Below, in pieces: positions 6,219-23,321 of a stretch of DNA of 43,550 nucleotides. Every line of letters begins with the position of its first letter. Position 1 is the stretch's first letter. The notes under the pieces were generated by a model. It was not told the DNA's origin. It saw only the letters and a list, made by a program, of their open reading frames with translations, and made no database searches. The stretch comes from a virus: the IMG/VR virus record IMGVR_UViG_3300005613_000127, positions 1-43,550 of that record; one strand, 5' to 3'. Both the position numbers and the translations under genes were made by a program.

Positions 6219-6979
6219 GAGCCGCCTCCGAAGATACCCTGTTTGAGTTGAGTCGCGAATGACTCCTCCACCGCCGCACCTTCCTGCGTGCCTTTGTCGG
6301 CTCTTTCTTCCAGCTGTCCGCCGGTGCCGGGCGCTGGCGTGGTGATCTCCGCGAATTGCAGCTCCGCGTATTTAATCTGTTGCGCTTCCAGGGCGAACGT
6401 TGTGGAATCAATCTCGTTATCGTAGGAGACCGACAGCGAGGTGATTACCATATTGTTATGCTGACGGTAGGGCATCTCAATGGTGAACGCCTGCTTGCCG
6501 GTGTGCAATGCTTCCATCACGTCAAGAAACTGTTCCTGTAGCGATTTGGATGCATCGTCTTTATTGCCGAAATAGTCCAGCGCCTGATCGCCAGTAGCCA
6601 ACAGATTGTCCAGCTGACGAATCGCGTCAGCCGCATCGTTGGCCAGCGTAGCGGCTTTCTGTAGTTGCGCCTGGGTGCGAGCCGGTGCGTACTGGGAAGT
6701 CACATTACCGATCTCTGCCTGTGCGCGGGCGAAATCACGGATCGCCGGAGAGGCGCGAAGATGTACGTCCGACACATCGCCTTCGATGCTCAGCGTCAGC
6801 GGCTTCAGAATGATGTGATCATTAACGAACGAGCCATCCTCGACCGGCGTGGTCGGCGCATCGGCGGACAGATTGTACCGCTCGCGGGTGCGCACCAGCG
6901 CGGTGAATGAACCGATACCGATCTCTTTAGTCGGAGCGTTCGCCAGATTGCGTTCGAGGAATGATTGTACAGCGGCCAT
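6215..6979 (-). CDS. Dit-like distal tail / baseplate tube-extension protein
   Basis: The 254-aa protein follows the tape measure gene, the normal place for a Dit-like or tube-extending protein. The N-terminal half (EIGIGSFTALVRTRERYNLS, then LKPLTLSIEGDVSD) is beta-rich. The middle is helical and Ala-rich (residues about 85-145). The beta pattern resumes with MPYRQHNNMVITSLSVSYD. I prefer the ATG at 6979, which has GGGGG nine bases upstream. A GTG six bases earlier would overlap the tape measure stop as GTGA. Confidence 0.65.
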   Translation of the reverse strand: MAAVQSFLERNLANAPTKEIGIGSFTALVRTRERYNLSADAPTTPVEDGSFVNDHIILKPLTLSIEGDVSDVHLRASPAIRDFARAQAEIGNVTSQYAPARTQAQLQKAATLANDAADAIRQLDNLLATGDQALDYFGNKDDASKSLQEQFLDVMEALHTGKQAFTIEMPYRQHNNMVITSLSVSYDNEIDSTTFALEAQQIKYAELQFAEITTPAPGTGGQLEERADKGTQEGAAVEESFATQLKQGIFGGGS

Positions 6980-6981
6980 GG

Positions 6982-8373: not shown

Positions 8374-8374
8374 G

Positions 8375-8605
8375 CTATTTGTCTCGCTGGTAGTGATACG
8401 CTTCTATATCGTTCTGGATCTGCTCGTATTCGATCACATCCATCAGGCGCGGCGTGTCCCACTGTTCGATTTCTTCTAACGAGCCGTAACCTTTGCGCAC
8501 CAGGTAGAAGAACGTCGCGTCGTCGTCGCTAACATTACTAAACGCCACAAACCCTGTAGAGTCGCGCCGTACCCTAACTGTTAGTCGGTAGGGACGGCGG
8601 GCAGA
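8375..8605 (-). CDS. -1 frameshift extension of the tail assembly chaperone (T-like part)
   Basis: This stretch has no convincing start codon of its own, but the -1 frame is open for 76 codons from the slippery site to a TAG two bases before the tape measure ATG. It encodes RRDSTGFVAFSNVSDDD, FFYLVRKGYGSLEEIEQWD and TPRLMDVIEYEQIQNDIEAY, a helical acidic region like other chaperone extensions. Translated by slippage, it gives a fusion of about 194 aa (118 from the upstream frame plus 76). That matches the lambda G/GT layout. Confidence 0.8.
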   Translation of the reverse strand, partial: SARRPYRLTVRVRRDSTGFVAFSNVSDDDATFFYLVRKGYGSLEEIEQWDTPRLMDVIEYEQIQNDIEAYHYQRDK

Positions 8606-8958
8606 AAAGGGAAGCTAATCGCGGGAAGCATCGTCATGACGAACGTGACATAGTCGTCCGGGTACTTCTCCCAGTGCGCATCACCGAGAATCGACAACAG
8701 TGAATCGTTGTACGCAACCACATTGTTAATGACATTTTCCACCGGCTCAAACTCTGCCGAATCGATGAACGACATGTCGCCGGTCTCGACCTGTTTGCCG
8801 ACGCGGGTGTAAAACGCGAACACCTTGCGGCGTTGCTTGTGGGTCATGCGCGTCATTTTGTAGGCGCGTCCGTTGATCTCCGCTTCCTGATCCTCAAAGA
8901 CCGCACGGATCATCGCCTGACCCGTTTTGAATTTCTCCAACTCTTCAGGTGTAGCCAT
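8581..8958 (-). CDS. Tail assembly chaperone (G-like)
   Basis: The 125-aa protein sits between tail tube and tape measure, the fixed place of tail assembly chaperones. Residues 35-60 (MTRMTHKQRRKVFAFYTRVG) and the acidic helical middle look like the DUF-type chaperones of small myoviruses. Near its 3' end (codons 117-118, CCT TTT) lies a C CCT TTT heptamer where ribosomes can slip -1 and continue into the overlapping frame. The unshifted product ends PAVPTD. Confidence 0.78.
   Translation of the reverse strand: MATPEELEKFKTGQAMIRAVFEDQEAEINGRAYKMTRMTHKQRRKVFAFYTRVGKQVETGDMSFIDSAEFEPVENVINNVVAYNDSLLSILGDAHWEKYPDDYVTFVMTMLPAISFPFLPAVPTD
8605..8611 (-). promoter_or_regulatory. -1 programmed ribosomal frameshift slippery heptamer CCCTTTT
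   Basis: Read on the minus strand, the zero-frame codons are CCT TTT preceded by C, so the heptamer fits X XXY YYZ exactly. After slipping, the tRNAs re-pair with CCC and TTT (still Pro and Phe). The zero frame ends 24 bases downstream while the -1 frame stays open to 8375. No strong downstream pseudoknot was evident by eye. Confidence 0.75.
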
Positions 8959-8960
8959 GA

Positions 8961-9392
8961 TTAAATATTCCGGATAGCGTTGCGGAAGCGAATCGTGTAT
9001 TCCATCATGCCTGACCCGTCCTGATTGTTTTTGACATTGCTGGGCTGGGTGGTGATCGATCCGTTCTCGAGAATGTAGGACTCAGCGCCCGCAATCCCGT
9101 CGCGGATGAAATCTTCTTTGACCGATCCGCCGAACACGGTGGGCGTCTCCTGATTGATCGCACTGTTGAAGAACACGTCCGATGCGCTGAACTTCTGCAC
9201 ACGCACGATCAAGTCATGCACCGCCGCGTCGATACGCTTGTTGATGTTCACACCGCCAGCGCCGGAATTGATGTGGCTTGTAACCGCGTTGACCGGATTC
9301 AGTTCGATGTAATCGCCTTCCGCGAAATCCGTGACCACCTGCCCGTTGAGGATCAGCGTGGTGCTTTCTGCTGCGAGTTGTATAGCTGCCAT
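8961..9392 (-). CDS. Tail tube protein (DUF3277-like)
   Basis: The 143-aa protein (LNGQVVTDFAEGDYIELNP, VNINKRIDAAVHDLIVRVQK, GSITTQPSNVKNNQDGSG) matches the small tube proteins that follow DUF3383 sheaths in small myoviruses. It should polymerise into the inner tail tube. It lies 12 nt after the sheath gene and is followed at once by the chaperone. Length is typical of this tube family. No processing site is evident. Confidence 0.8.
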   Translation of the reverse strand: MAAIQLAAESTTLILNGQVVTDFAEGDYIELNPVNAVTSHINSGAGGVNINKRIDAAVHDLIVRVQKFSASDVFFNSAINQETPTVFGGSVKEDFIRDGIAGAESYILENGSITTQPSNVKNNQDGSGMMEYTIRFRNAIRNI

Positions 9393-9404
9393 GGTGGGCC
9401 CCTG

Positions 9405-10919
9405 TTAAGCGTTAAAGTTGATGATGATGTTGGCGGAATGGATCGCACCGGCATTCTTGACGGCGGCTTGCAGCACCGGCGATTTGCGTGCGGCACGATC
9501 CGCCTGCGGCTGGTCTGCCAGCGAACCGGCAATCCAGTAGAAACCATTCGCCGAAATGTTGCGCGTGAAGGTATCGTAGTCGCCGAAGAAGTCAGGGCTT
9601 GACCACGTACCGGGTGCGAACACACCGGCGCGAACAAAGCCGCGGGTCGTCTTTTCGCCCTGATCGATCAACTGATTCACGCCGGACTGTGTTTGCGGGA
9701 TCTTGGTGGCGGTCAGCGACAGCAGGTTGAACATATCGGTCTGTACCGCATCGATGAACGCAATAAGATTGTAGCGATTGTCCATGAAGTCGTTCGCGCC
9801 GCTGGTCAGAACCTTCGGCACGTCTTTGATCGTGGTGTAGATATCCAGGCCGACAGTTTTGGCGGCGGTGATGACGGACTGACTGTAGTCCTCTGCGGCT
9901 ACGCTCAACGCTTTCAGGTGCATCGTCAGTGCCGATTTTTCCGCGTTGAAATTGACAACATGCGCCCGCGCCATGTAGGTGCTGGCCATCTTGCGATTAT
10001 TCGCGGCGCTGTACAGCATGCGGTAGTTCGTGTGGCCTGCCAGCTTGATCTCCCAGACGACGTTCGTGGCGACGGCGGTCGTCAGGTAGACGGCGCCGCT
10101 AAACACCTCGTACACCAGCACGCTGTTCGCCTGAGCCCATGCGGCCATCAGCAGCCGGTTCTCGTCGGTGTCTGCATCGATGATGGACAGACCTTTAAAA
10201 TTAACCAGCGCTTTCAAAGCGGTGGCGGCGGCAAGCTGTGTTTCGGCGGTAAGCACTTCGGCAGCGGCACCCTGTACGGTAGTCGCACCGGTACCAGTGC
10301 CTATGCCAAGTAACGTGCCGACATAGGTGCCGGTGCCCGGATCGGACGCGACGGTCATCAGACTGAGAACGCCTGTGGTGTCGCTGGTCACGACGATGCG
10401 GTTATCCGTGCTAACGGTAACGGTCGCGCCGGTAATGCCGGTCACTTCATTGTCAAGCAGCGTAGCGACTTCCGCGAGGGTAGTCACGCCTTGCAGATCG
10501 AGCGCCGTGACGCTGACCGTCGTGCCGTCTACATCGATGTCAAGAGTGCCGTCGCTGATCGCCTGTAGTTGATCGATGACGGTGGTTTCTGTTAGTTGTG
10601 CGCCTGTCAGTACCGCAGCCGTAGCGGCGACCGACTCGCTGGCACCACGCCAATAGCCTGCAACCAGTACGCCTTCCGCGTTGGTGGGGTTCGGCGTGGT
10701 GCCGAAGAATGCGGTGGCATGGGCGTACATGTCGGAATCGGTGCCGAAGTCCGTCGCAACGCTGGCGATGTCGCTGTACAGCTCGTAGCGATTCGCGGTA
10801 GACAATGGGCCGGACTGCTGGCTGGTCATAATCGCCACGACGTTCATGTTGTCGCGGGCAGCCGCTACGCCTTCGGGCAGTAGTGTGACGCTGATCACGT
10901 TTGAGATATTAGCCGACAT
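9405..10919 (-). CDS. Contractile tail sheath protein (DUF3383)
   Basis: The 504-aa protein starts MSANISNVISVTLLPEGVAA and contains the sheath-like core with KTTRGFVRAGVFAPGTWS and DYDTFTRNISANGFYWIAGS near the C-terminus, characteristic of DUF3383 sheaths. A beta-rich inserted domain rich in Thr/Val/Gly occupies residues about 95-205 and probably decorates the sheath exterior. It is the largest virion structural gene and is followed by the tube gene, as expected. Sheath contraction drives DNA injection. Confidence 0.9.
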   Translation of the reverse strand: MSANISNVISVTLLPEGVAAARDNMNVVAIMTSQQSGPLSTANRYELYSDIASVATDFGTDSDMYAHATAFFGTTPNPTNAEGVLVAGYWRGASESVAATAAVLTGAQLTETTVIDQLQAISDGTLDIDVDGTTVSVTALDLQGVTTLAEVATLLDNEVTGITGATVTVSTDNRIVVTSDTTGVLSLMTVASDPGTGTYVGTLLGIGTGTGATTVQGAAAEVLTAETQLAAATALKALVNFKGLSIIDADTDENRLLMAAWAQANSVLVYEVFSGAVYLTTAVATNVVWEIKLAGHTNYRMLYSAANNRKMASTYMARAHVVNFNAEKSALTMHLKALSVAAEDYSQSVITAAKTVGLDIYTTIKDVPKVLTSGANDFMDNRYNLIAFIDAVQTDMFNLLSLTATKIPQTQSGVNQLIDQGEKTTRGFVRAGVFAPGTWSSPDFFGDYDTFTRNISANGFYWIAGSLADQPQADRAARKSPVLQAAVKNAGAIHSANIIINFNA

Positions 10920-11412
10920 ATTCTGTGCCCTCTTCCGTTCTGATTTCGAGCTGCGCGGTATCTATGCGCAGGATTGTTTCTGTAAATTCGGTACTCACTT
11001 CGACCTGCATTTCAATCTGTACACGCTCACCGTATATCTGGCCTGTGAGCTGCTTCAAGTCGGTCGGCCCTGTCGGGTGGTAGATCGTGATCCCGTTCGT
11101 GCGTTGCAGTTCGCGGGATGTCTGTGACCGTAGCCGCAGCGTCAATTCAATAGCCCGATTGTATGTCCCGGAGCCGTACAGGTCAAGCGTCACGGGGCCG
11201 CGCCATATTGCGCCGAGGCTTAACTCTTCGGCGGTGCCGTCGTACGTCTCAAGGCTTGCCGTCTGCGCAGCCTGACCGAGCGCATCGATTACGATGTAGT
11301 TCGTCTCAAAATCGACCTGTTCGAAATTCTGCCTACCGATGCGGATCAGCTGCTCGTTATACGTGAGCAGATCGCGTATAACTTTGGTGACTTTGGTCAG
11401 TGTAGGATTCAT
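10909..11412 (-). CDS. Neck / tail terminator protein, LIC_12616-like
   Basis: Using the ATG at 11412 (one-base overlap with the upstream stop), the product is 167 aa (MNPTLTKVTKVIRDL...). The segment LIRIGRQNFEQVDFETNYIV resembles the LIC_12616 family found just before sheath genes, and the protein probably terminates or joins the tail tube at the neck. The overlap with the sheath start is 11 nt. The identification is from motif memory and position. Confidence 0.65.
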   Translation of the reverse strand: MNPTLTKVTKVIRDLLTYNEQLIRIGRQNFEQVDFETNYIVIDALGQAAQTASLETYDGTAEELSLGAIWRGPVTLDLYGSGTYNRAIELTLRLRSQTSRELQRTNGITIYHPTGPTDLKQLTGQIYGERVQIEMQVEVSTEFTETILRIDTAQLEIRTEEGTEYVG

Positions 11413-12272
11413 TACGCAGGCTCCAGATGTCCATACCACGATATGCCGACGGTCGCGGCTTTGCTCGACGAGTGCAAACCGCCGATAATCGTGCCCTCTG
11501 CGAAATTTTGAGGCGTGGGGAAATTGAAACCAATGCCTCCGTTCGACACCCCGGTAGACCCGAACGGAATCCAGATGACCGGATCGCGATACTTATGACC
11601 GTATATGTCGTTGGCTACCAGAAACAACGTGGTCTGCGTGTCGGCGGTCACACTGTTGCTGCTGCCTATAGCACCATCGATGTATAGCTTTTTGCCTTTC
11701 GGCACCATGCGGAACGATGAAGAACAGCGCGGAGCGCCTATCGCTATCTGACTAAACACAGCTCCGCCAACCGTCGCACGCAGTACAATCGTACCGGCGG
11801 CGTACCCGGCCTCTTGATCTGACGTGTGCATGCACTGCACGAAGGTCACGTCATCGACCGGGAGTTGTACGGGCGTCGTGCCGTTCATCTCGACTTCAAT
11901 TTCTATTTCGTTCAGACCGCCGTCAAGGTAGTGGATCGACGTATACGCCATCCCAGTACCGCCGGGAGCGTCCTCTACCGATGTGCTCACAATCTCCAAC
12001 TGTGTGCCGCCGTTGTACGCCACACCTACCGTCGCACCGTCTGGCCAAACCGGGAATCGAGTCTCGGCACCAGTACTGGTTCGCAGTCCATACGCACCGA
12101 ACCCACTGGCGCCGGGGTACTCCCCACGTGCAATGCTCAGAGGCAGGCGGCGCAGGAATTCAGCGATGTTGACCATCACGCCGTCATCGGCCATGAACCG
12201 GCCAGTGAACGGGTGCTGATCCGCGAGCCATTCCTTCGCCTTCGCTATGCCGCCGGTCAAGTACGTGATCAT
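11412..12272 (-). CDS. Hypothetical virion protein (neck or decoration)
   Basis: The 286-aa protein is Gly/Thr/Val-rich and likely all-beta, with IPFGSTGVSNGGIGFNFPTP near the C-terminus. I do not recognise its family. It lies among connector genes between the small 114-aa protein (4-nt overlap) and the neck protein (1-nt overlap), so a virion role such as neck collar, whisker or decoration is likely. Unlike its neighbours it is not small, which argues for an exposed domain. Confidence 0.5.
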   Translation of the reverse strand: MITYLTGGIAKAKEWLADQHPFTGRFMADDGVMVNIAEFLRRLPLSIARGEYPGASGFGAYGLRTSTGAETRFPVWPDGATVGVAYNGGTQLEIVSTSVEDAPGGTGMAYTSIHYLDGGLNEIEIEVEMNGTTPVQLPVDDVTFVQCMHTSDQEAGYAAGTIVLRATVGGAVFSQIAIGAPRCSSSFRMVPKGKKLYIDGAIGSSNSVTADTQTTLFLVANDIYGHKYRDPVIWIPFGSTGVSNGGIGFNFPTPQNFAEGTIIGGLHSSSKAATVGISWYGHLEPA

Positions 12273-15778: not shown

Positions 15779-16957
15779 TTATAGCTCCTTATCTTTGAGG
15801 TTGTTAAAACTGGATGTTTGTGTATCGGCGAATTGCTTATAATTCGCGTCGGGTTTTTTCAGCAGCTTGAATGCCAGCGCCAGTTCGGTGTCGGCAAATT
15901 GCTCGGGGTCGACCGTGGCCAGCGCGTCGCGCATGATCTCGTCGGTATTCTTGTCCGCGAATTTGTAATCCTCAGCGAGGAAGCCGCGCGCCTTTTCGAT
16001 CACGGCGGCATGTGCTTTCACAGCTTTATCGGCGTAGGACTTCATGTCGGCATCGGAGAACGCGGGCTTGTCTTCTTCCTCGTCCTCATCTTCGGTAGGC
16101 ACTTCGGGTGTAACCGGCTCCTTGGGTACAAGCGGCGCATCTTCGGGCGCTTCTTCTTCCTCGGCAGGCATCACACCTTTAGCCGCTTCGACGATCTGCT
16201 GGAGCGCGGGTAGCAACTCCTGCAACTGGTCAACGGGCACGGCTTTGATCGCCTCAGGCAGCGCGGTCGCCAGCTCAACGATCTGCTGTAGGTTCATGGT
16301 GCCCTCGGCATCGCTGAACGCTTTATGTAATTTAGTCTTAGTCGCCATTGGCTGGTCCTCGGGTTTCTTGTCGATAAAAGAGCACATCGAACCGCAACGG
16401 CCCCGGTCGACGATGGCCAGGTGATGTGGTCGGATGTTACGTTGTTCAAAATCATACTCGTCATGCGGCACGAGGTCGGCATGGTAGCCCAGCGAGAGTT
16501 CGCGCTTGCCCGCCTCAACGGTTAGGCACAACGTGTCACTGATCGCCAACTGATTGCGGATAGCAATTGTGGCCATCGCAGCGCTGTCAAGCGCGTCGAC
16601 CATTTCAGCCTCTGCGACAAAGCCACCACCCGTAGGCGGCATGGCATCCAGCAATACGTGTTCATCAGTGATCGGCAAGCCGCGCATCTTCATAGCTGTA
16701 TTAGCTATGGTGGCAGGCGAGCGATACACCTTGAACATTCGATCCGGCGGCTCCATGTTTAGCTCAATGCCCAGATACTCCAGCACACCATCGCGCACGG
16801 AGACGGCGGACTTCTCGGACGCGTTAAACACCGCCGAGTCGCGAAACTCACCAGTATACGTGTCTTTGAATTGCGCCTGACAGATGGCGTAGGCTTGCTC
16901 TTCGGTCTTACCCGACTTGATCACAGCCTGCACACAATCGTCTAATTTTTTTGGCAT
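15779..16957 (-). CDS. Prohead protease fused to scaffold (DUF2213-like)
   Basis: From ATG 16957 the product is 392 aa. Residues 1-40 (MPKKLDDCVQAVIKSGKTEE, then QAYAICQAQF) form the small helical domain often found at the front of these proteins. The middle shows DUF2213 features (RMFKVYRSPATIANTAMKMR, GLPITDEHVLLD, ELSLGYHADLVPHDEYDFEQ, IRPHHLAIVDRGRCG). The C-terminal 170 residues are acidic and helical (EEEEAPEDAPLVP, DEDEEEDKPAFSDADMKSYA), as in a scaffold. A longer TTG-start frame is rejected because it would span the promoter. No Shine-Dalgarno sequence is visible. Confidence 0.82.
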   Translation of the reverse strand: MPKKLDDCVQAVIKSGKTEEQAYAICQAQFKDTYTGEFRDSAVFNASEKSAVSVRDGVLEYLGIELNMEPPDRMFKVYRSPATIANTAMKMRGLPITDEHVLLDAMPPTGGGFVAEAEMVDALDSAAMATIAIRNQLAISDTLCLTVEAGKRELSLGYHADLVPHDEYDFEQRNIRPHHLAIVDRGRCGSMCSFIDKKPEDQPMATKTKLHKAFSDAEGTMNLQQIVELATALPEAIKAVPVDQLQELLPALQQIVEAAKGVMPAEEEEAPEDAPLVPKEPVTPEVPTEDEDEEEDKPAFSDADMKSYADKAVKAHAAVIEKARGFLAEDYKFADKNTDEIMRDALATVDPEQFADTELALAFKLLKKPDANYKQFADTQTSSFNNLKDKEL

Positions 16958-16964
16958 AGGCCGA

Positions 16965-16993
16965 TTTATACCCCAGCAGATGCGGTATGTCAA
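16965..16993 (-). promoter_or_regulatory. Strong sigma70-type promoter for the capsid half of the late operon
   Basis: On the minus strand this reads TTGACA (16988-16993), 17 bases, TATAAA (16965-16970), nearly consensus. The expected transcription start, seven or eight bases beyond the -10, coincides with the A of the protease ATG at 16957. The mRNA would therefore be leaderless or nearly so, which fits the lack of a Shine-Dalgarno sequence. Such a promoter is needed here because plus-strand genes separate these genes from the terminase half. Confidence 0.65.
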
Positions 16994-17004
16994 CAACCAT
17001 AAAA

Positions 17005-17100: not shown

Positions 17101-17400
17101 ATGGACTCTGATCAATTTACCGATGAAGAAGGCGTGTGCCGTATGCCCTGTCCGAACTGCGGATCGCCGGTAGAGGTGGTAAGCAGCCGGGACGGTAGGG
17201 TGTTATCGACCTATGCACAGTGCCAAGGGCCGGAGCATGTCTGCGGCGGACAGTTCTTTACTACCGAATCCCATGAGAACCCTAACTGGCTCGATCATTT
17301 ATCCCAGTCGGATTTCGACACGGTGGCCATTAAGTTTGACCAATGGGCCCACACCTCCAAAGCGTCCGAAGGCTATCGACGCGACGAAGAGTGGACTTAA
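17101..17400 (+). CDS. Ogr/Delta-like zinc-finger regulator
   Basis: The 99-aa protein contains C17-P-N-C20-G ... Y-x-Q-C41 ... C48-G-G-Q-F-F, the CPxCG...YxQCxnxxCGxxF layout of the P2 Ogr / P4 Delta family of late-gene activators (zinc-binding, contacting RNA polymerase alpha). The C-terminal half is acidic and not part of the usual family. It reads opposite to the late genes it might activate and begins the plus-strand region that splits the late operon. The ribosome binding site is weak. Activator function is inferred. Confidence 0.68.
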   Translation: MDSDQFTDEEGVCRMPCPNCGSPVEVVSSRDGRVLSTYAQCQGPEHVCGGQFFTTESHENPNWLDHLSQSDFDTVAIKFDQWAHTSKASEGYRRDEEWT

Positions 17401-17426
17401 ACTTTTAACCAACAGGAACCAAGCCA

Positions 17427-17672
17427 ATGAGCCTAGCACCTATATCCGTAATAATGACCCGCATCAAAGCAGCCACCCCCGAGTCGCCTATCGCGGTATT
17501 CAAGCCCGTCATCCGCGACTACGGTCAACTGGACGCCATGTTCGGCAGCACGGTGCGCACCCAGGAGCGCGTAGAATCAGGCGACCCGCTGTTCGTCGGG
17601 TACTTTCACAGCCGCAACGGCATGTCAACCGACGCACTGTTCGCATTATTGAAGGTGGCCACTAATGGTTAG
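17427..17672 (+). CDS. Hypothetical small protein
   Basis: The 81-aa protein (MSLAPISVIMTRIKAATPES...) has a good ribosome binding site (AGGA nine bases before ATG) and overlaps the next gene by 8 nt, so it is likely real. FGSTVRTQERVESGDPLFVG followed by YFHSRNGMSTDALF has no motif I recognise. Base composition is phage-like, unlike the cassettes downstream. It probably belongs to an operon with the Ogr-like gene. Confidence 0.5.
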   Translation: MSLAPISVIMTRIKAATPESPIAVFKPVIRDYGQLDAMFGSTVRTQERVESGDPLFVGYFHSRNGMSTDALFALLKVATNG

Positions 17673-17859
17673 CGATAACTGCCACGCCCGACTCGACCGA
17701 TCCGGTGGGTACTCGTGCCCCCGGTGCGGCCTACAGTGGGATGCGGATGATACCGATCCGCCGGAGTGCAGGCAGGAACCGGGCAAGGCCAGTGAGACAA
17801 CGCGCGTGCGTGAACTGGGGCGTGTGCAGGATATACTTAACAGAGCTAATGAGGGTTGA
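17665..17859 (+). CDS. Small zinc-ribbon-like hypothetical protein
   Basis: The 64-aa protein has a C-P-R-C-G knuckle near residue 18 and a further Cys at DPPEC, plus an early Cys at DNCHARL, so it may bind zinc with a minimal ribbon. The C-terminus is a charged helix (RVRELGRVQDILNRANEG). It overlaps the upstream gene by 8 nt. Its stop codon lies in GGTTGAATG, where GTTGAAT fits the integron core consensus GTTRRRY, a possible left edge for the cassette array. Confidence 0.5.
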   Translation: MVSDNCHARLDRSGGYSCPRCGLQWDADDTDPPECRQEPGKASETTRVRELGRVQDILNRANEG

Positions 17860-18108
17860 ATGATGCGTGAATTATTAAACGAACTATTAGAATTTAAAAA
17901 CGCCATTAGTCATAACGGATGGATAATTCTACCACCATCGCCAGAGGGTGAGCTGAGAGTTCGTGTGGAATGGTGTCTTGCGGAAAGGCACGGATTTGAG
18001 ATGAACTGGAGCCTCTTAGAAATTGAAAAGTCAAATACCAACCTTGCTAAAGTATTTGTAGCTAACGCAAACCGATACATAAAAAGCGTTGTTGATAAAA
18101 ACCAATAG
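17860..18108 (+). CDS. Hypothetical 82-aa protein, possible first cassette ORF
   Basis: The protein begins MMRELLNELLEFKNAISHNG (the first or second ATG is possible; GAGGG lies just upstream in the preceding gene). Composition is clearly more AT-rich than the three genes before it, like the cassettes that follow. I recognise no family. The segment WIILPPSPEGELRVRVEWCL suggests a small alpha/beta fold. It may be part of cassette 1, whose attC lies 90 bases further on. Whether it entered with the array is uncertain. Confidence 0.5.
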   Translation: MMRELLNELLEFKNAISHNGWIILPPSPEGELRVRVEWCLAERHGFEMNWSLLEIEKSNTNLAKVFVANANRYIKSVVDKNQ

Positions 18109-18120
18109 GGTGCCTAAGTA

Positions 18121-18198
18121 ATGGAGCTAATATTACAAACCTTATCGGCGGGCATTCTACTGGTGACGGCCGTGCTGGTGGTTCGGCTTTGGTGGTAG
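18121..18198 (+). CDS. 25-aa single-pass membrane peptide
   Basis: A short ORF encodes MELILQTLSAGILLVTAVLV followed by VRLWW, essentially one transmembrane helix. AGGGTG lies about nine bases before the ATG. Its TAG stop abuts the GATTAAC that begins the first attC hairpin. It could be a phage membrane micropeptide or a toxin-like cassette product. Too short for a firm call. Confidence 0.35.
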   Translation: MELILQTLSAGILLVTAVLVVRLWW

Positions 18199-18301
18199 GA
18201 TTAACGACCAAGCTCAGGGGCGCAATAAAGCGCCCACTGAGGCCCAAATTTAACCACAAACCGCGCCGCTTTATTGCGTCGCCTGGAGCTAATTGTTATG
18301 C
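18199..18301 (+). repeat. attC site 1
   Basis: The outer boxes are GATTAAC (18199-18205) and GTTATGC (18295-18301), total 103 bp. The arms AGCTCAGG...CGCAATAAAGCG and CGCTTTATTGCG...CCTGGAGCT pair over a perfect inner 12 bp and an outer segment with one extra-helical base. The outer segment and flanks closely resemble attC site 7 at 20361. The GGAG inside the right arm serves as ribosome binding site for the next ORF. Confidence 0.82.
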
Positions 18302-18522
18302 AAGTTTTATACACCGATTATCCTTTTGTTGAGCTTGGCGATACGCCAGGCGAGATTGCGCCAGTGCGGAAAGTGATGCCGCTGGAGTATGACGGAGATA
18401 AGTATTGCACAGTGCTAGTTGATGGCATCAAGAGTGAGATCAAGGCCGGGTACATTTACACTAAGCGCGGAAGGTGTGGTGAAGTGCCGGTATTTAACCC
18501 TGCTGAATACTTTTCTGCATAA
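18298..18522 (+). CDS. Cassette protein, hypothetical (74 aa)
   Basis: The ATG lies inside the GTTATGC core box of attC 1, with GGAG nine bases upstream inside the attC arm, so I prefer it to a TTG start 24 bases earlier. The stop TAA is part of the next GCATAAC box. The protein (MQVLYTDYPFVELGDTPGEI..., EYDGDKYCTVLVDGIKSEIK) looks like a small beta-rich domain, possibly SH3-like, of unknown function, a common type of cassette product. Confidence 0.72.
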   Translation: MQVLYTDYPFVELGDTPGEIAPVRKVMPLEYDGDKYCTVLVDGIKSEIKAGYIYTKRGRCGEVPVFNPAEYFSA

Positions 18523-18581
18523 CGCCAACATAACCGGCACGTAGCGAAGCGGAGTGTCCGCAGTTAATGTGCCGGTTATGT
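18517..18581 (+). repeat. attC-like site 2 (atypical)
   Basis: It starts with GCATAAC (18517-18523) and ends with GTTATGT (18575-18581). A perfect 14-bp inverted repeat, AACATAACCGGCAC / GTGCCGGTTATGTT, encloses a 28-base loop. The left flank TAACGCCAACATAA matches the truncated site at 19050, so both belong to one attC family. The perfect arms without a bulge are unusual for attC and may reflect partial degeneration or a modified site. Confidence 0.6.
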
Positions 18582-18599
18582 TCTTTTGAGGACATAGAT

Positions 18600-18776
18600 A
18601 TGGAAATAGTCACAAGCTGGCAGACGTTAATGCTATACGCCAAAGAACTTGGGCGGGCAAGACTGAGCGGAGATGAAGCTCGTATAACAGAGGCTAAACG
18701 AAAACATGACGAGTACCGCGATCTTTGCCTTAGAAGTGACAGAGTGATTTTACCGTGCGTCTTTGGCGACTTGTAG
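18600..18776 (+). CDS. Cassette protein, hypothetical (58 aa)
   Basis: The ATG at 18600 has GAGG nine bases upstream. An in-frame ATG at 18567 lies in the attC hairpin and is rejected. The protein (MEIVTSWQTLMLYAKELGRA, RITEAKRKHDEYRDLCLRSD) is mostly helical and charged. It ends one base before ACATAAC of the next attC. No family recognised. Confidence 0.62.
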   Translation: MEIVTSWQTLMLYAKELGRARLSGDEARITEAKRKHDEYRDLCLRSDRVILPCVFGDL

Positions 18777-18844
18777 ACATAACAAATTAGCTAATTAGTG
18801 AGCCGGCGCTTTTCCGGCGAATCAGATTTAGCGCCTGGTTAGGC
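18777..18844 (+). repeat. attC site 3
   Basis: Boxes ACATAAC (18777-18783) and GTTAGGC (18838-18844), 68 bp. The arms GCTAATTAGTGAGCCGG and CCGGCGAATCAGATTTAGC pair as GCTAA, TGA and GCCGG blocks separated by mismatches and extra bases, with a short apical loop. GTTAGGC is an exact GTTRRRY core. Confidence 0.78.
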
Positions 18845-18857
18845 GCAGGAGAACATG

Positions 18858-19055
18858 ATGGAACTTGAAGTAATAGAGCAGCAAATAGCTTGCAACGAAC
18901 TAACAGCGGCGCAGGTATTTACACAGATGAAACAGTATATAGATATTGCGCATAAAGCTGGCTGGGATGGTGCAGTATTAGCTGTTGTTGATCTAATGGA
19001 GACTGGCGCTGGCGTTGATGAAGAAACAATTAAAGAACAACTTTTGAGCGCCTAA
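18858..19055 (+). CDS. Cassette protein, hypothetical (65 aa, helical)
   Basis: AGGAG stands six bases before the second of two consecutive ATGs (18855 or 18858), and I take the second. The protein (MELEVIEQQIACNELTAAQV, YIDIAHKAGWDGAVLAVVDL) is acidic and all-helical. Its TAA stop is inside GCCTAAC of the next site. The pattern of ORF stop inside the R'' box recurs along the array. Function unknown. Confidence 0.62.
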   Translation: MELEVIEQQIACNELTAAQVFTQMKQYIDIAHKAGWDGAVLAVVDLMETGAGVDEETIKEQLLSA

Positions 19056-19086
19056 CGCCAGCATAAACGGGCGGCGATTTGCCGCC
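19050..19086 (+). repeat. Truncated attC site 4 (left half only)
   Basis: GCCTAAC (19050-19056) is followed by GCCAGCATAAACGG and a perfect GGCGGC-GATTT-GCCGCC hairpin, but the matching right arm and GTTRRRY core are absent. The sequence runs directly into the AGGAGA of the next gene. Two former cassettes thus appear fused. Confidence 0.6.
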
Positions 19087-19105
19087 AGAACAGGAGATTG
19101 AGACG

Positions 19106-19441
19106 ATGACAAACGAAGCCGAGAAACCAGAAGCAACCGCCGACCAAGCCGCTCCGGTTGATGCACTTGTTATGCGAGTCCTCCGGTTTGTGCAAATGGT
19201 ATCGGATGGCGGCGCAAGGACTCCGAACGGCACCCAATTTGTGTGGGCCACATGGTTTTGGAGCGACGACTATCGCCCGGAAAACAGCGTGAGGAGCGTG
19301 CTACCTGGCGAATGGAGTGAACTGAAGGCGCGGGCATACATGCGCCTACTTGGGCGCTTTGGTCTCATCAGCGGTTGCCATTGCGGGTGTCGCGGAGATT
19401 ATGTGCTGACCGAAAAAGCCAAAAGGTTGATTGGCGCATAA
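19106..19441 (+). CDS. Cassette protein, hypothetical (111 aa, winged-helix-like end)
   Basis: Start ATG 19106 has AGGAGA about nine bases upstream, and an in-frame TTG at 19079 is rejected. After an Ala/Glu-rich leader the protein reads VMRVLRFVQMVSDGGARTPN, ELKARAYMRLLGRFGLISGC, then HCGCRGDYVLTEKAKRLIGA. The GLI-x-G...Y-x-L-T-E-K-A ending resembles the wing region of winged-helix proteins. It is the most GC-rich cassette. Stop TAA lies in GCATAAC. Confidence 0.65.
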   Translation: MTNEAEKPEATADQAAPVDALVMRVLRFVQMVSDGGARTPNGTQFVWATWFWSDDYRPENSVRSVLPGEWSELKARAYMRLLGRFGLISGCHCGCRGDYVLTEKAKRLIGA

Positions 19442-19506
19442 CGGTGTGCTCAGCGGTAGGAATGGAGCGCAGCGGAATGACTATCCGCTGGAGCTATTTG
19501 TTAGCA
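19436..19506 (+). repeat. attC site 5
   Basis: Boxes GCATAAC (19436-19442) and a slightly degenerate GTTAGCA (19500-19506), 71 bp. Arms GCTCAGCGGTAG and CTATCCGCTGGAGC pair with extra-helical C and A, the same GCTC-AG / CTGGAGC theme as sites 1 and 7. The loop contains a second AGCGG copy. Confidence 0.74.
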
Positions 19507-19525
19507 ATTTTATTTGGAGAAAATA

Positions 19526-19762
19526 ATGGAACTTAAAAAACTTGAAGGGCTGATAGAAGACAAGGTGGTAAAAGGTGAAATGCCTTGTGGACTATTCGAC
19601 ACCGGGGTGCAGATTGTGCGTGTGTACCTCGGCGGTGACGATTTCGATACTGTTTGCTTTGAGTGGTTTCCGCACCCGGAGGCTCTTGAAGCATACCTGA
19701 TTGCTAACGATGAAGCTGTGCGGCAGGCAGCCGCCAAACTTGGAGAAAACGACGATGACTGA
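19526..19762 (+). CDS. Cassette protein, hypothetical (78 aa)
   Basis: GGAG seven bases before ATG 19526 supports this start over a TTG at 19514. The product (MELKKLEGLIEDKVVKGEMP, DTVCFEWFPHPEALEAYLIA) is an acidic alpha/beta protein. Its end overlaps the next ORF by 8 nt (ATGACTGA), making this a two-gene cassette with translational coupling, which is less common than one ORF per cassette. Confidence 0.64.
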   Translation: MELKKLEGLIEDKVVKGEMPCGLFDTGVQIVRVYLGGDDFDTVCFEWFPHPEALEAYLIANDEAVRQAAAKLGENDDD

Positions 19763-20036
19763 CGAAACCACGAACACCGAACAAAACCGCGTTGCGGCTG
19801 ACTGTCTGAACGAGCGCCTTCTTATGCGCTACGGGTACTGTTGCGACTGCAAACATATCCACGCTGAATCTGTGGTTCAAGCCAGTAAAATCCCCGGACA
19901 CCCTTGCAACGGGTGCTGGTTTACTGATGATAAACACAATTGGGAATCGAGGGATGGAAAACAATATTATACGGATGACGGCATGCTGATGAATGGTGAC
20001 GGAACAAGAAGCATATTTGATGATGTTGACGCATAA
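19755..20036 (+). CDS. Cassette protein, Cys-rich, possible zinc binding (93 aa)
   Basis: Starts inside the end of the preceding ORF with GGAG nine bases upstream. It contains YGYCCDCKHIHAES and GHPCNGCWFTDD, giving two CxxC-like knuckles with nearby His, so a single zinc site is plausible. The C-terminus is Asp/Gly-rich (YYTDDGMLMNGDG). Stop TAA is inside GCATAAC at 20031. Unknown function. Confidence 0.64.
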   Translation: MTDETTNTEQNRVAADCLNERLLMRYGYCCDCKHIHAESVVQASKIPGHPCNGCWFTDDKHNWESRDGKQYYTDDGMLMNGDGTRSIFDDVDA

Positions 20037-20037
20037 C
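20031..20037 (+). repeat. attC remnant 6 (R'' box only)
   Basis: GCATAAC at the stop codon is followed by GTGAAAGCTAACAGGAGAACGAA and then the next start codon, with no hairpin and no GTTRRRY core. It looks like the left end of an attC whose remainder was deleted, joining two cassettes. Confidence 0.5.
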
Positions 20038-20060
20038 GTGAAAGCTAACAGGAGAACGAA

Positions 20061-20366
20061 ATGAGCAAAGCGAATGAAGTGAATCCGGTTGAGCGATTTG
20101 TCATGCGTATCGGTAACGTCGAAGTTAGATGTTGCGATAAGCATTTATGTAGCACCGGATTTTTAGAAACTGCTGAAATTGTAAAGTGGCATGATGGTGG
20201 TGAAACTTGCCACACTATCGCTGCATGGCGCAGAGATAACGAAGGATACGACTTGTATTTCATTGGTGGCAGACCGTTTGATGCTTGTGGTGCTGATGTT
20301 TTCTGGAAGCTGGCAAAAGCAGGACAAGACCATTTAGATGATTACTTTGAAGAAACGGACGCATAA
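20061..20366 (+). CDS. Cassette protein, hypothetical (101 aa)
   Basis: AGGAG nine bases before ATG. The protein (NPVERFVMRIGNVEVRCCDK, ETAEIVKWHDGGETCHTIAA, DVFWKLAKAGQDHLDDYFEE) has the look of the small alpha/beta proteins common in chromosomal integron cassettes. Cysteines are scattered (CC, C, C, C) without a clear ribbon. It stops inside GCATAAC of attC 7. Function unknown. Confidence 0.66.
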   Translation: MSKANEVNPVERFVMRIGNVEVRCCDKHLCSTGFLETAEIVKWHDGGETCHTIAAWRRDNEGYDLYFIGGRPFDACGADVFWKLAKAGQDHLDDYFEETDA

Positions 20367-20461
20367 CGACCAAGCTCAGGCGACCAGAACCGCCTGCACA
20401 GAGTTTAAATTTACCAATAAAGCCGACGCGGTTCTGGGTCGGCTGGAGCGTAGTGTTATGC
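20361..20461 (+). repeat. attC site 7
   Basis: Perfectly complementary outer boxes GCATAAC (20361-20367) and GTTATGC (20455-20461), 101 bp. Arms AGCTCAGGCGACCAGAACCGC-type and GCGGTTCTGGGTCGGCTGGAGCG-type pair almost fully with two extra-helical cytosines. The central TTTAAATTTACCA resembles the centre of site 1. It is the most canonical attC in the array. Confidence 0.85.
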
Positions 20462-20634
20462 GTGACTTTGAAATAGGTGACATTGTTGAGATCGGGGCGC
20501 TTGATGAATGGTATGAGGTTGTCGGCGTAATTCACGACGAGGAACGGCTATTTGTTGCTACTGGCCCATCATGGTGCGAGCAAGAATTTCCGTTTGGCTC
20601 AGTGGTGGCACAGTACCGACGCATTGACGCATAA
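20458..20634 (+). CDS. Cassette protein, hypothetical (58 aa, SH3-like)
   Basis: The ATG is inside the GTTATGC core, with GGAG nine bases upstream inside the attC arm, the same arrangement as the ORF at 18298. MRDFEIGDIVEIGALDEWYE, VVGVIHDEERLFVATGPSWC has the strand pattern of a small SH3-like barrel (GDIVEI...WYEVVGV). Stop TAA is in GCATAAC. Similar to the 74-aa cassette protein in style, but not clearly homologous. Confidence 0.68.
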   Translation: MRDFEIGDIVEIGALDEWYEVVGVIHDEERLFVATGPSWCEQEFPFGSVVAQYRRIDA

Positions 20635-20697
20635 CGACTTGCGATAACCGGAGAGGCGCGGCTTTTGCGCCGAATCCGGTTTATTGCTTTGTTATGT
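20629..20697 (+). repeat. attC site 8
   Basis: Boxes GCATAAC (20629-20635) and GTTATGT (20691-20697), 69 bp. Arms GCGATAACCGGAGAGGCGC and GCGCCGAATCCGGTTTATTGC pair in GC, ATAA, CCGGA and GGCGC blocks with an extra-helical A and an internal asymmetry, around a short CGGCTTTT-type loop. Good attC geometry. Confidence 0.8.
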
Positions 20698-20708
20698 GAT
20701 TTTAGTGA

Positions 20709-20737
20709 TTGACATTGATTGGTGCCTGATGTAAAGT
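20709..20737 (+). promoter_or_regulatory. Promoter carried by a cassette
   Basis: TTGACA (20709-20714), 17 bases, TAAAGT (20732-20737), upstream of the AlpA-like gene. Most cassettes lack promoters, so this one may drive its own regulator and the last cassette. The -35 is perfect and the -10 matches in four of six positions. Confidence 0.55.
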
Positions 20738-20768
20738 TAAAACTCTTAAACAATATACGGAATTAGCT

Positions 20769-20960
20769 ATGAATGTCGACACTAAAGAATCTATTTATTA
20801 CTCTGATAAGTGCTTAGCAAAAAAATACTCAGTTAGCAGGGCTACTATTTGGCGATGGGCTGACAATGGGACACTGCCTAAGCCGTTTAAGTTTTCTGGC
20901 GGTGTAACTAGGTGGAGAAATAGTGATATAGCTGAATTTGAAAAAACACTTAGCACATAA
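20769..20960 (+). CDS. AlpA / excisionase-like DNA-binding protein
   Basis: The 63-aa protein YYSDKCLAKKYSVSRATIWR, WADNGTLPKPFKFSGGVTRW, RNSDIAEFEKTL matches the MerR-like winged-helix AlpA/HTH_17 pattern (..ha..ygvSraTiWRwvk.G.lPkPvklg.....W...di..w). AlpA-type proteins regulate or excise mobile elements. It is carried as a cassette with its own promoter and sits between attC sites 8 and 9. Its target is unknown. It could act on phage or host promoters. Confidence 0.82.
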   Translation: MNVDTKESIYYSDKCLAKKYSVSRATIWRWADNGTLPKPFKFSGGVTRWRNSDIAEFEKTLST

Positions 20961-21039
20961 CGATTGAAATAAGCGGCGGCGTTGCGCTGCCAGATAAAAA
21001 CCTACTGTATGACCGTCGCGCTAGATTGACTGGTTAGGC
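20955..21039 (+). repeat. attC site 9
   Basis: Boxes ACATAAC (20955-20961) and GTTAGGC (21033-21039), 85 bp. Arms around AAGCGGCGGCG and CGTCGCGCTAG pair imperfectly, and the loop is longer than in the other sites. The AlpA-like ORF stop lies inside the left box. The core box is an exact GTTRRRY. Confidence 0.66.
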
Positions 21040-21063
21040 ATTTTTCCTACGGAGTAAAAGTTT

Positions 21064-21306
21064 ATGAATGAAGATATTAGATGGCTTATTGAAACAGGTT
21101 CACCCGCTAAATGGTGGCAAAGTGGAGGAAGGGCGATGTTCGGCGGCGAGTACATTGAAACATGGGTAGACGATGCTAGTCACGCGCATGATTTTCGCAA
21201 AAAAGAATGGGCAGAAGCGGAAATAAAAAGACTTGAATCATTTGGTGTTACTACTCCAATGACCGCAACTGAGCACATGTTTGGCTGCTGGACTGGTGAT
21301 GCCTAA
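21064..21306 (+). CDS. Cassette protein, hypothetical (80 aa), last in array
   Basis: GGAG ten bases before ATG. The protein (MNEDIRWLIETGSPAKWWQS, KKEWAEAEIKRLESFGVTTP, TEHMFGCWTGDA) is small, acidic and Trp-rich. The stop TAA is inside GCCTAAC at 21301, where an attC should begin, but the phage sequence follows within a few bases. I do not recognise a family. Confidence 0.64.
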   Translation: MNEDIRWLIETGSPAKWWQSGGRAMFGGEYIETWVDDASHAHDFRKKEWAEAEIKRLESFGVTTPMTATEHMFGCWTGDA

Positions 21307-21307
21307 C
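21301..21307 (+). repeat. attC remnant 10 (R'' box) at the array's right edge
   Basis: GCCTAAC is followed by TTGTCAATAG and then the 3' end of the minor head gene. No hairpin remains. GATGCCTAA occurs at 21299-21307 and again at 21319-21327, where the second copy overlaps the head gene's stop codon, a short direct repeat at the junction. Confidence 0.5.
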
Positions 21308-21322
21308 TTGTCAATAGGATGC

Positions 21323-22147
21323 CTAATCGTCCTCTGGGATGATTAGCTCATAGTCACACCGACACTGGTAGTCTACGCCTGGTAGCAACCACTGACCGTC
21401 GCACGACGAGTACAATCCTTTGCCCAGCTCGAACTCTTTACCCTCGCGGCGTTCGTGGCATTTCCGCACCCGTTCGTCCTTACTCGTGCGCCAGATCGCC
21501 TTTTCGATCCCCAGGTTCTGCGCGCGTAGCTTTGTGGTGATGCTGTTGAAATTGCCGATCTGATTGCGCGCGGTGAACTTGGCATGGTTCTTGCGCTTCT
21601 CCACCATTCCGTCGAACTGCGACAGGATCTCTTCCAGGCTGCTACCCTGCGTCATAGCTTGCAGCGTGTTGGCGGTGTACAGCTCCAGCGTCTCGTCGCG
21701 TAGCTTTTTGACCCATTGTGCTGTCTCAAGATTCAGCGCGTTGATGTCCGCCGTCAGACCTTCCGTAGCGGTTAGCTCGGTCGTGGACAGCCCGATAGCC
21801 TTCTCGACCCGACTGTACAACTCGCTGCGGTTGCGCTTGTTGACTTTACCCAGCACGCTTTTAACCAGCGCGTCGATGCGTTTGTTGTCGAACTGTTTAA
21901 TCAACTTAGATGACGTGCGGTTGGCCAGTCGCAGGAACACCCGCGCATAGTTGCCCGGTTGTGCATCCTCGAACTTGTCCACCGTGCTGGCGTGCAGGCT
22001 CTTGATCGCCTGGTTGCGGAATCGCTGGCTTATCTGCTCGATCATGTAGGCGGTAGCCTGCTCCAGCTCCCGTTCCTGCGCACGGGGTGACTCGGGTGCC
22101 TTTATCTGGATCGGCTTGTCGGCTTTTAGGTTACGCTTCACTGTCAT
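21323..22147 (-). CDS. Minor head protein (Mu gpF / SPP1 gp7-like)
   Basis: From ATG 22147 the protein is 274 aa (MTVKRNLKADKPIQIKAPES...). A longer frame overlapping the portal gene is rejected because GGG precedes this start. The C-terminal third, HAKFTARNQIGNFNSITTKL, AIWRTSKDERVRKCHERREG, KEF..., LPGVDYQCRCDYELIIPED, is the Phage_Mu_F signature with RxxHxxxxGxxF-like spacing and CRC. It binds portal and scaffold during head assembly. The cassette array lies directly beyond its stop. Confidence 0.85.
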   Translation of the reverse strand: MTVKRNLKADKPIQIKAPESPRAQERELEQATAYMIEQISQRFRNQAIKSLHASTVDKFEDAQPGNYARVFLRLANRTSSKLIKQFDNKRIDALVKSVLGKVNKRNRSELYSRVEKAIGLSTTELTATEGLTADINALNLETAQWVKKLRDETLELYTANTLQAMTQGSSLEEILSQFDGMVEKRKNHAKFTARNQIGNFNSITTKLRAQNLGIEKAIWRTSKDERVRKCHERREGKEFELGKGLYSSCDGQWLLPGVDYQCRCDYELIIPEDD

Positions 22148-23321
22148 CATCCCTGAACATCGTCGCGAAATCATCCTTCGCCAGCACGTCCTTATCTTCG
22201 AGGTATAGGCGGTAGTCCTCGCCCATTTCATAAAGTACGCGGGCATTGGCGATGGCTTTCGTCTCGAAGTCCATGCGACCCTGCGGTGTCTCGCCCTGGT
22301 TCTCTTTGAATTTGACGATACCCTGCCCGAGCTTGCGCATCAGGTGGTTAATTGGTTCGAGCAGATAGTCGGATTGCAGCGCCTCGATCATATCCTGATC
22401 CATTGCCCGTTCGTTATCCCCGGTCGCGCCCAGCCCCTTCGGACTCTCGCCGACCAGCAGAGTGAGGGATAGCCCTGTGACCATAGCGAGCCGTCGGAGC
22501 GTGATCTGATCCGCGTCGGCAAGGTTAGCGATGGTCTGCTGTATGACTTCGATGTCGTCCTCCTTGTCGACCAGCCCCGCCGAGTAGATGCTGACCAGAT
22601 CGTTCATCTTGGTGAAATAGCTCACCATAGCGGTCTCTTGACCGGTGCGCATCGCGTCCTTGAAGCCGGTCACTTTGTAGAAAATGATTGAGGCCTTCTC
22701 GATAATCTTCGGGCTAGAGCGCTGCACGATGCCATCCGCGATCAGCTGTTCGTAGACCATCTCCGTCTCACTGATGCCGCCGTATCGGTATTGCACCGCG
22801 TCGAGCTCCGGCGGTTCGATATAGGTGAAATCGACGACACGCGACCAGTGGATCCCGTGCCCGCGCACGTTGTACGTAATCGGCTTGTAGTAGCGCGGCG
22901 AATCGAGATCCCGCTCAATGTCCCCGACGGTCACCATGTCGCCACTAAACACCTCGATTTGCATCTGTTCGGCTATCACACTCCCTAGCGGCGTACTCAG
23001 GTCGTCGCCTCGTCGATGCAGCACCACGATGCCCCGACCGAACGCCAGCATCCATTTAGCGGTGCGCTTCACCTTGCTGGCTAGATGCAGGTCGTAATAT
23101 TTCTCATCCTCGGTGCTCTCGAACTGTAGTGTATCCTTGAGCGCGTACCCGGCTTTCAGGCGGATGATCTTATTCATGATGCCGTGGCGGTAGACCCGTC
23201 GCAGCGTTTCATCGCTCAGCACCGTCGGGACGATGACGTTCTGCGCTGTGACAAGCCGCTGATTGATCGCCGCGCTGACGAAACTCTTAACGCCGTCGGC
23301 AAATTGGGATAGTTTGTTCAT
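22131..23321 (-). CDS. Portal protein (DUF1073-like)
   Basis: The 396-aa protein reads LRRVYRHGIMNKIIRLKAGY near residue 40, HGIHWSRVVDFTYIEPPEL near 155, and MVTGLSLTLLVGESPKGLGA, TGDNERAMDQDMIEALQSDY near 285, the hallmark of DUF1073 portals. Twelve copies form the DNA gateway at the head vertex. It follows large terminase with a 4-nt overlap and precedes the minor head gene, as is normal. Confidence 0.88.
   Translation of the reverse strand: MNKLSQFADGVKSFVSAAINQRLVTAQNVIVPTVLSDETLRRVYRHGIMNKIIRLKAGYALKDTLQFESTEDEKYYDLHLASKVKRTAKWMLAFGRGIVVLHRRGDDLSTPLGSVIAEQMQIEVFSGDMVTVGDIERDLDSPRYYKPITYNVRGHGIHWSRVVDFTYIEPPELDAVQYRYGGISETEMVYEQLIADGIVQRSSPKIIEKASIIFYKVTGFKDAMRTGQETAMVSYFTKMNDLVSIYSAGLVDKEDDIEVIQQTIANLADADQITLRRLAMVTGLSLTLLVGESPKGLGATGDNERAMDQDMIEALQSDYLLEPINHLMRKLGQGIVKFKENQGETPQGRMDFETKAIANARVLYEMGEDYRLYLEDKDVLAKDDFATMFRDDDSEA

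Follow-up and report, generated by a model that had tools for sequence, protein, structure and literature searches.

Introduction

In the textbook integron, a gene cassette consists of a promoterless gene with an attC site at its 3' end, and it is read from the integron promoter (Pc). In known attC sites, the canonical strand has two additional bases, a C and an A, in its 5' (L'') arm, and the left end of a cassette (TTRRRY) must pair with the R'' box of its own attC. Insertion of cassettes at non-classical attG sites has reportedly been described as well. The extra-helical bases direct the choice of the attC strand (Bouvier 2009, PMC2727003), and clusters of attC sites lacking integron integrases (CALINs) have been found in virulent phages, where they comprise small open reading frames (ORFs) without an integrase and, in several cases, methyltransferases (Qi et al. 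2023, PMC9892861). This study addresses a block of attC sites and small genes in the IMG/VR virus record IMGVR_UViG_3300005613_000127, which was analysed over its whole length of 43,550 bp (hereafter the window) and contains no host genome sequence.

As phage attC arrays are already known (Qi 2023), the array is not of a new kind; what is new is the inverted orientation of cassettes in eight of nine phages and an inverted cargo that, in phages other than that of the window, includes DNA methyltransferases, Mom, and the Thoeris inhibitor Tad4. A literature search, with most subscription journals and bioRxiv outside its reach, found no paper describing inverted phage cassettes. We assign a probability of roughly 0.7 to the reading that the block is an integrase-less array of ten inverted cassettes, which a host integrase acting in trans placed in an accessory hot spot of a myovirus.

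Identification of ten attC sites

Because Rfam gave zero families at the gathering threshold, attC covariance models (CMs) were built in this analysis on attC sites from outside the window, i.e., from class 1 plasmid integrons and other arrays. Model R1 (24 training sites) was replaced by R2 because its training set mixed site orientations; R2 was trained on 15 sites in canonical orientation only, from class 1 plasmid integrons and the array of phage contig L221, the latter supplying seven. Model A2, based on a MAFFT alignment of full sites, was dropped since the L' arm was misaligned; the half-site alignments (A3, A4) succeeded.

With R1, seven of the eight best places in the window fall inside the block, as do all of the top six R2 matches, the strongest being 31.9 bits (E 1.5e-5) at 19436-19505 and the next 26.1 bits (E 3e-4) at 20629-20697. 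Box-plus-hairpin scores of 29, 31, 23, and 22 were obtained in the array, and none of 40 shuffles reached 22. When the pairing register between left ends and R'' boxes is read across the block, three sites emerge in addition to seven hairpins noted earlier, at 19050-19175, 19702-19827, and 20031-20106, giving ten attCs and ten cassettes. Within cassettes, 40 of 40 variable box bases pair, against 29.4 expected with shuffled partners (permutation p 1.4e-4); the seven pairs free of hindsight choice match at 28/28 (p 0.005). Pairing inside single attCs reaches merely 25/40, as expected for an array. Outer boxes (RYYYAAC/GTTRRRY) with paired L''/L' arms are strong in attC1, 4, 5, 7, 8, and 9 and weak in attC2, 3, 6, and 10, with attC3, attC6, and attC10 the weakest of the ten. 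The hairpins are real integron attC sites, and the block has the composition of a CALIN (two or more attCs pointing the same way, short ORFs between them, integrase not nearby). TIGR02249 found no integron integrase in the record, which may be incomplete, and there is no complete integron with intI, attI, and Pc beside the array. The sites are as follows, on the strand assigned below.

18205 to 21306 (3102 bp), minus (canonical attC strand): complete insert of ten contiguous attC cassettes; G|TT at both ends, exact ten-cassette partition
18199 to 18301, minus: attC1, canonically the last attC, its R' box GTTAATC a hybrid with phage sequence; weak in CMs R1/R2, extra-helical base
18517 to 18581, minus: attC2; R2 13.6 bits, minus
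18777 to 18844, minus: attC3, strand ambiguous by CM (+11.2 / -10.0); CM, arm comparison
19050 to 19175, minus: attC4, holds the start of gene 4 in its loop; hairpin-box score, R1, arm comparison, box pairing
19436 to 19506, minus: attC5; R2 31.9 bits, E 1.5e-5, minus
19702 to 19827, minus: attC6, degenerate, CTTATGC box, inside gene 5; box pairing, no CM match
20031 to 20106, minus: attC7, holds the start of gene 7 in its loop, compensatory change relative to L270; R2 14.3 bits
20361 to 20461, minus: attC8; R2 12.7 bits (partial), extra-helical bases
20629 to 20697, minus: attC9; R2 26.1 bits, E 3e-4, minus
20955 to 21039, minus: attC10, weak hairpin, arm test did not settle the strand; box pairing
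21301 to 21307, minus: lone R-type box GTTAGGC, attI/attG-like entry point ACAAG|TTAGGC

Inverted orientation of the cassettes

All five of the five best R2 matches lie on the minus strand, and the ORFs of the block lie on the plus strand. Independently of any model, the extra C and A are seen in the minus-strand arm, e.g., attC5 AGCT[C]CAGCGG[A]TAG, so that the extra-helical L'' bases stand opposite to the ORFs (attC10 excepted). Net arm length gives minus in 7/10 sites; attC7 and attC9 are net zero with the same bulge positions, and attC10 gave no strand. The canonical arrangement, with the gene on the attC strand and attC at its 3' end, is absent from the window. The R2 strand, the extra-helical bases, and the boundaries of a cassette shared with another phage together show that every gene has its attC at the 5' end; by these sequence comparisons, all ten cassettes appear inverted, with attC canonical on minus and genes on plus. 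An earlier note on this DNA had listed seven attC-type hairpins without an integrase gene. All seven are present, the attC assignment stands on CM matches, shuffles, and box pairing, and no integrase gene was found; its count missed three sites, and its view that hairpins and ORFs point the same way is reversed here. The attC covariance search that it had called for was carried out with R1/R2 and places the window's best matches in the block.

The shared cassette is cassette 7, which recurs in L270, an unrelated phage contig with Bet, RecE, helicase, and methyltransferase genes. The two copies are 80% identical in nucleotides over window positions 20040-20367, closely matching the inverted cassette (20037-20366); these limits do not fit the unit expected were attC 3' of the gene. 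Differences between the copies fall 16/13/37 by codon position of the plus-strand ORF, and this concentration at third positions indicates that the plus ORF is the gene. A compensatory change in attC7 (GCT/GAGC to GGT/GACC) argues for selection on the folded site. In L270, cassette 7 lies directly behind the TAA of an upstream phage gene. No match to the block was found by blastn against plasmids and phages.

The genes of the ten cassettes are listed below. For 8/10 of them, the TAA of the boundary box is the stop codon. Genes 4, 6, and 7 start inside an attC loop, and the ATG of genes 1 and 8 lies within a GTTATGC box, 9 nucleotides past the GGAG of the L box.

18298 to 18522, plus: gene 1, 74 aa, start codon within attC1 box GTTATGC
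18600 to 18776, plus: gene 2, 58 aa
18858 to 19055, plus: gene 3, 65 aa
19106 to 19441, plus: gene 4, 111 aa, phage family phrog_5135/14052, possibly winged-helix
19526 to 19762, plus: gene 5, 78 aa, extends beyond the cassette 5/6 boundary
19755 to 20036, plus: gene 6, 93 aa, cysteine-rich
20061 to 20366, plus: gene 7, 101 aa, cassette also in L270
20458 to 20634, plus: gene 8, 58 aa, start codon within attC8 box GTTATGC
20769 to 20960, plus: gene 9, 63 aa, HTH_17/AlpA-like regulator, sigma70-like promoter 20709-20737
21064 to 21306, plus: gene 10, 80 aa

Insertion edges and phage locus

In the canonical register, the insert divides into ten cassettes without remainder (3102 bp). Its minus strand opens with the lone box TATTGACAAG|TTAGGC and closes with a complete attC, in which phage sequence finishes the R' (GTTAATC); with the flanks joined, the target reads TATTGACAAG|TTAATCC, and the predicted empty site of the phage is TAGGATTAACTTGTCAATAGG. 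A lone G|TT site on one side with a complete attC on the other is the layout of attG-type insertion, and such edges are what an integrase is expected to leave when it inserts cassettes at an attI- or attG-like site. A near-perfect direct repeat, CAATAGGRTGCCTAA, is present at 18103-18117 and 21312-21326; in the empty site, ~90 bp would separate its copies, with a 25-aa hydrophobic ORF (18121-18198) between them. A target duplication was considered for this repeat and set aside, as the G|TT boundaries account better for the insert.

The record is a genuine myovirus, and the array sits among its structural and replication genes. Terminase, portal, MuF-type head protein, protease, major head protein, sheath, and tape measure are encoded on the minus strand, and the replication genes comprise a DNA polymerase, a primase, a Gp2.5-like annealing protein, and an exonuclease. 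The major capsid protein is 43-51% identical to those of Vibrio phages, which are distant kin; metagenomic contigs are nearer, with 66-69% identity in the terminase. The insert lies between the following features.

21323 to 22246, minus: MuF-type head morphogenesis gene, borders the insert (phrog_324, E 1.7e-48)
17101 to 18198, plus: accessory ORFs of the phage, upstream of the insert and codirectional with the cassette genes (17101-17400, 17427-17672, 17665-17859, 17860-18108, 18121-18198)
15779 to 16996, minus: head maturation protease, far side of the accessory hot spot (phrog_530, E 1.4e-38)

Small plus-strand ORFs fill this interval, the attC block being its 18205-21306 part. In related loci, the MuF-protease gap measures 35-125 bp in most and holds 0.9-3.1 kb of non-attC genes in others, so that the junction is an accessory-gene hot spot, one that most relatives leave almost empty. 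In L001 (13378-15335), L084, L109, and L118, the gap carries differing small plus-strand genes without attCs, so the hot spot does not depend on the array. Neither R1 nor R2 has a match in the MuF-protease gap of the relatives.

Inverted cassettes in other phages

Inverted cassettes were found in 8/9 phages examined: the window phage, L270, PH101, MW202573, P12002L, and the virus contigs G007, L221, and L148, which were picked up by motif or homology. Four of these phages come from Qi et al. 2023 and were re-examined here: PH101, MW202573, and P12002L are inverted, and TJE1, the ninth phage, is canonical. PH101 has three attCs on plus and its genes on minus; MW202573 has attCs on minus and genes on plus, with one methyltransferase starting inside an attC; P12002L, with one attC match only, has it on plus and its methyltransferases on minus. 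The inverted cassette of G007 holds a methyltransferase of phrog_954. This 37 kb record (L268, 2140-2818) is a second myophage with a methyltransferase cassette and the same attC type, its family being that of the MW202573 cassette. L221, a phage contig with tail genes, carries twelve attCs at 6811-11434 with a Mom-like DNA modification protein, an N6_N4 methylase, DUF551, and phrog_12600, all opposite to the attCs. The array of L148 (3616-5763) lies beside the terminase, with the Thoeris inhibitor Tad4 (E 1.4e-30) and a helicase-loader-like gene likewise opposite.

Gene direction was also counted by taking the longest ORF between neighbouring attCs in 18 bacterial regions and eight phages (P12002L left out). 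Bacteria gave 67 same and 18 opposite (~79% same), and phages 8 and 24 (Fisher p 1.5e-7, a value to be read with the cassettes of one array not being independent and seven R2 training sites coming from L221); class 1 integrons gave 4 and 0. The count understates inversion, because the rule took the wrong strand in G007 and once in L221, where the homologous gene is on the other strand.

Scanning virus contigs with a 15-base attC motif gave mostly chance matches and was set aside. A Verrucomicrobia origin of the sites was also dropped: in genomes, several longer-pattern matches had no attC-like site and were apparently due to chance. In the 52 kb record of L224, which is perhaps a prophage or bacterial contig, an integron-integrase-like gene (G575:C1:10657-11598; 231 bits, below the cut-off of 265) occurs with attCs.

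Alternative explanations

The window cassettes might be canonical ones lifted from a host chromosomal integron, with strand calls that are artefacts of near-palindromic sites. The attC boxes are indeed near-palindromic, attC3 and attC10 are ambiguous, and phage TJE1 shows that phages with canonical cassettes exist. This explanation is nevertheless improbable: model score and extra-helical bases both give minus, the cassette in L270 terminates exactly at inverted boundaries, and the same test that makes clear homologues in other phages (methyltransferases, Mom, Tad4) inverted leaves class 1 integrons and TJE1 canonical. An assembly chimera, i.e., a bacterial integron fragment fused to phage sequence, is the least probable. 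It would explain the G+C content of the block (0.476, against 0.55-0.57 in neighbouring phage genes), and the joins were judged from the assembled sequence, but each edge coincides with a G|TT recombination point and the cassettes enclosed come to a whole number, unlike a random misassembly; relatives have other accessory genes in the same place and direction, and a different phage contig holds one of the cassettes. Less remote than either, though still unlikely, is that the array is a frozen remnant, or that the phage annealing protein and exonuclease shuffle its genes via homologous recombination between attC-like repeats. The phage does encode both proteins, the record lacks an integrase, and some sites are degenerate (attC6). 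However, the attC sites have little sequence in common, which makes homologous exchange between them unlikely; box pairing within cassettes is perfect, attC7 carries the compensatory change, and IntI1 recombined 5/6 attCs from other phages (Qi 2023, PMC9892861).

Several observations weigh against insertion of inverted cassettes by a host integrase. As the integrase is absent from the record, recombination itself is inferred. Several sites score poorly when taken individually: attC1, 3, 4, 6, and 10 each lack a significant CM match, and beyond the two top sites, attC5 and attC9, scores are weak; attC6 is damaged and located within gene 5, and attC3 and attC10 have no firm strand call. Cassettes of TJE1 are canonical, and the stop/start-codon rule is not universal, as PH101 genes begin 57-100 bp from the attC. 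Cassette 7 is the one cassette found in another phage, and it was not found in 369 gammaproteobacterial and 195 Verrucomicrobiota-phylum genomes (564 in total); for cassettes 1 and 10, no close relative turned up among viruses.

Cargo of the window cassettes

Relatives of gene 1 occur in Pseudomonas jumbo phages and Synechococcus phage B23. The family of gene 4 (phrog_5135) is phage-wide, with 99 phage records; its AlphaFold model (pLDDT, the predicted local distance difference test, of 73) has winged-helix DNA binders among its best PDB matches, none of them significant. The model of gene 7 was not used (pLDDT 52.6). Gene 9 is an AlpA/helix-turn-helix regulator by family match, and the sigma70-like promoter at 20709-20737 just before it makes it the sole cassette with a convincing promoter of its own; promoter-like matches across the region are overall near chance. 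NCBIfam yielded sub-threshold matches only, and a defence or counter-defence function could be assigned to none of the ten window cassettes. A counter-defence role of this cargo is suggested solely by the cassettes of other phages.

These results bear on the wider claims of the earlier note. The array does lie inside a genuine phage, as the structural and replication genes attest, and the G|TT edges make a chimeric join unlikely. It was said to split the late operon; it does split the structural operon, between the MuF-type gene and the protease, but at a junction that serves as an accessory hot spot in relatives. The suggested route for cassette transfer gains from the presence of cassette 7 in an unrelated phage, and such a route is already published (Qi et al. 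2023, PMC9892861). The idea of an anti-defence store agrees with the cargo of other phages' cassettes and finds no assignable function in those of the window.

Proposed mechanism

Under the preferred reading, a host IntI would cut the plus ('bottom') strand of attC while the phage DNA is single-stranded, and cassettes would be added or removed at the lone ACAAG|TT site. Read on the opposite strand, the IntI core G|TTA spells the stop codon TAA plus C, and the attC 5' half, likewise reverse-complemented, can supply a Shine-Dalgarno-like GGAG and an ATG (GTTATG). With TAA from the core and GGAG/ATG from attC, an inverted cassette would therefore add one complete gene to a plus-strand operon and leave the neighbours unharmed. 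The position of cassette 7 behind the upstream TAA in L270 fits this operon extension; PH101 fits less well. While in a host integron, an inverted cassette would be silent from the usual Pc. In the phage, the genes would be read with the accessory operon and from the sigma70-like promoter before gene 9, the cargo being small phage early or counter-defence genes transcribed from phage promoters. These features suggest phage-adapted reverse cassettes that host integrases mobilise and phage operons express.

More tentatively, and at slightly less than even odds, phages may have in common a separate pool of reverse cassettes, where the other strand of attC serves as a 5' module (ribosome-binding site and start) and the integrase cut site provides the stop codon; host integrases would shuffle between phages these counter-defence and early genes, which would be silent in host integrons and on only in a phage operon. 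If phage cassettes are systematically reversed, they would form a separate population, with genes silent in a bacterial integron and active in a phage operon. Bacterial integrons, now regarded as stores of anti-phage genes, would then be linked through one integrase to a mirrored phage store of counter-defence genes, and phage-host cassette exchange would become directly testable. The direction of attC relative to the gene would offer a simple rule for mining phage counter-defence genes.

Comparison with known systems

With class 1 and sedentary chromosomal cassettes, the array shares the R'', L'', L', and R' boxes, two extra-helical bases, box complementarity, and G|TT boundaries. In class 1 and most bacterial arrays, attC lies 3' of the gene on the same strand, whereas in the window it lies 5' on the opposite strand, without IntI, attI, and Pc. 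As in phage moron hot spots, small genes of variable content lie on the strand opposite to the two structural genes around them; in this array they take the form of attC cassettes. Insertion at attG sites, as reported by Loot et al. 2024 according to PMC12901181, resembles the window in its lone G|TT entry on one side and complete attC on the other; the target here would be a phage genome receiving ten inverted cassettes, and the two are likened by layout, not by attG consensus. The closest systems are the phage CALINs of Qi 2023, which also combine attCs and small ORFs without an integrase. These were treated as canonical or mosaic, whereas in the window gene and attC stand on opposite strands, and the window array adds a resolved insertion point and a cassette shared with another phage.

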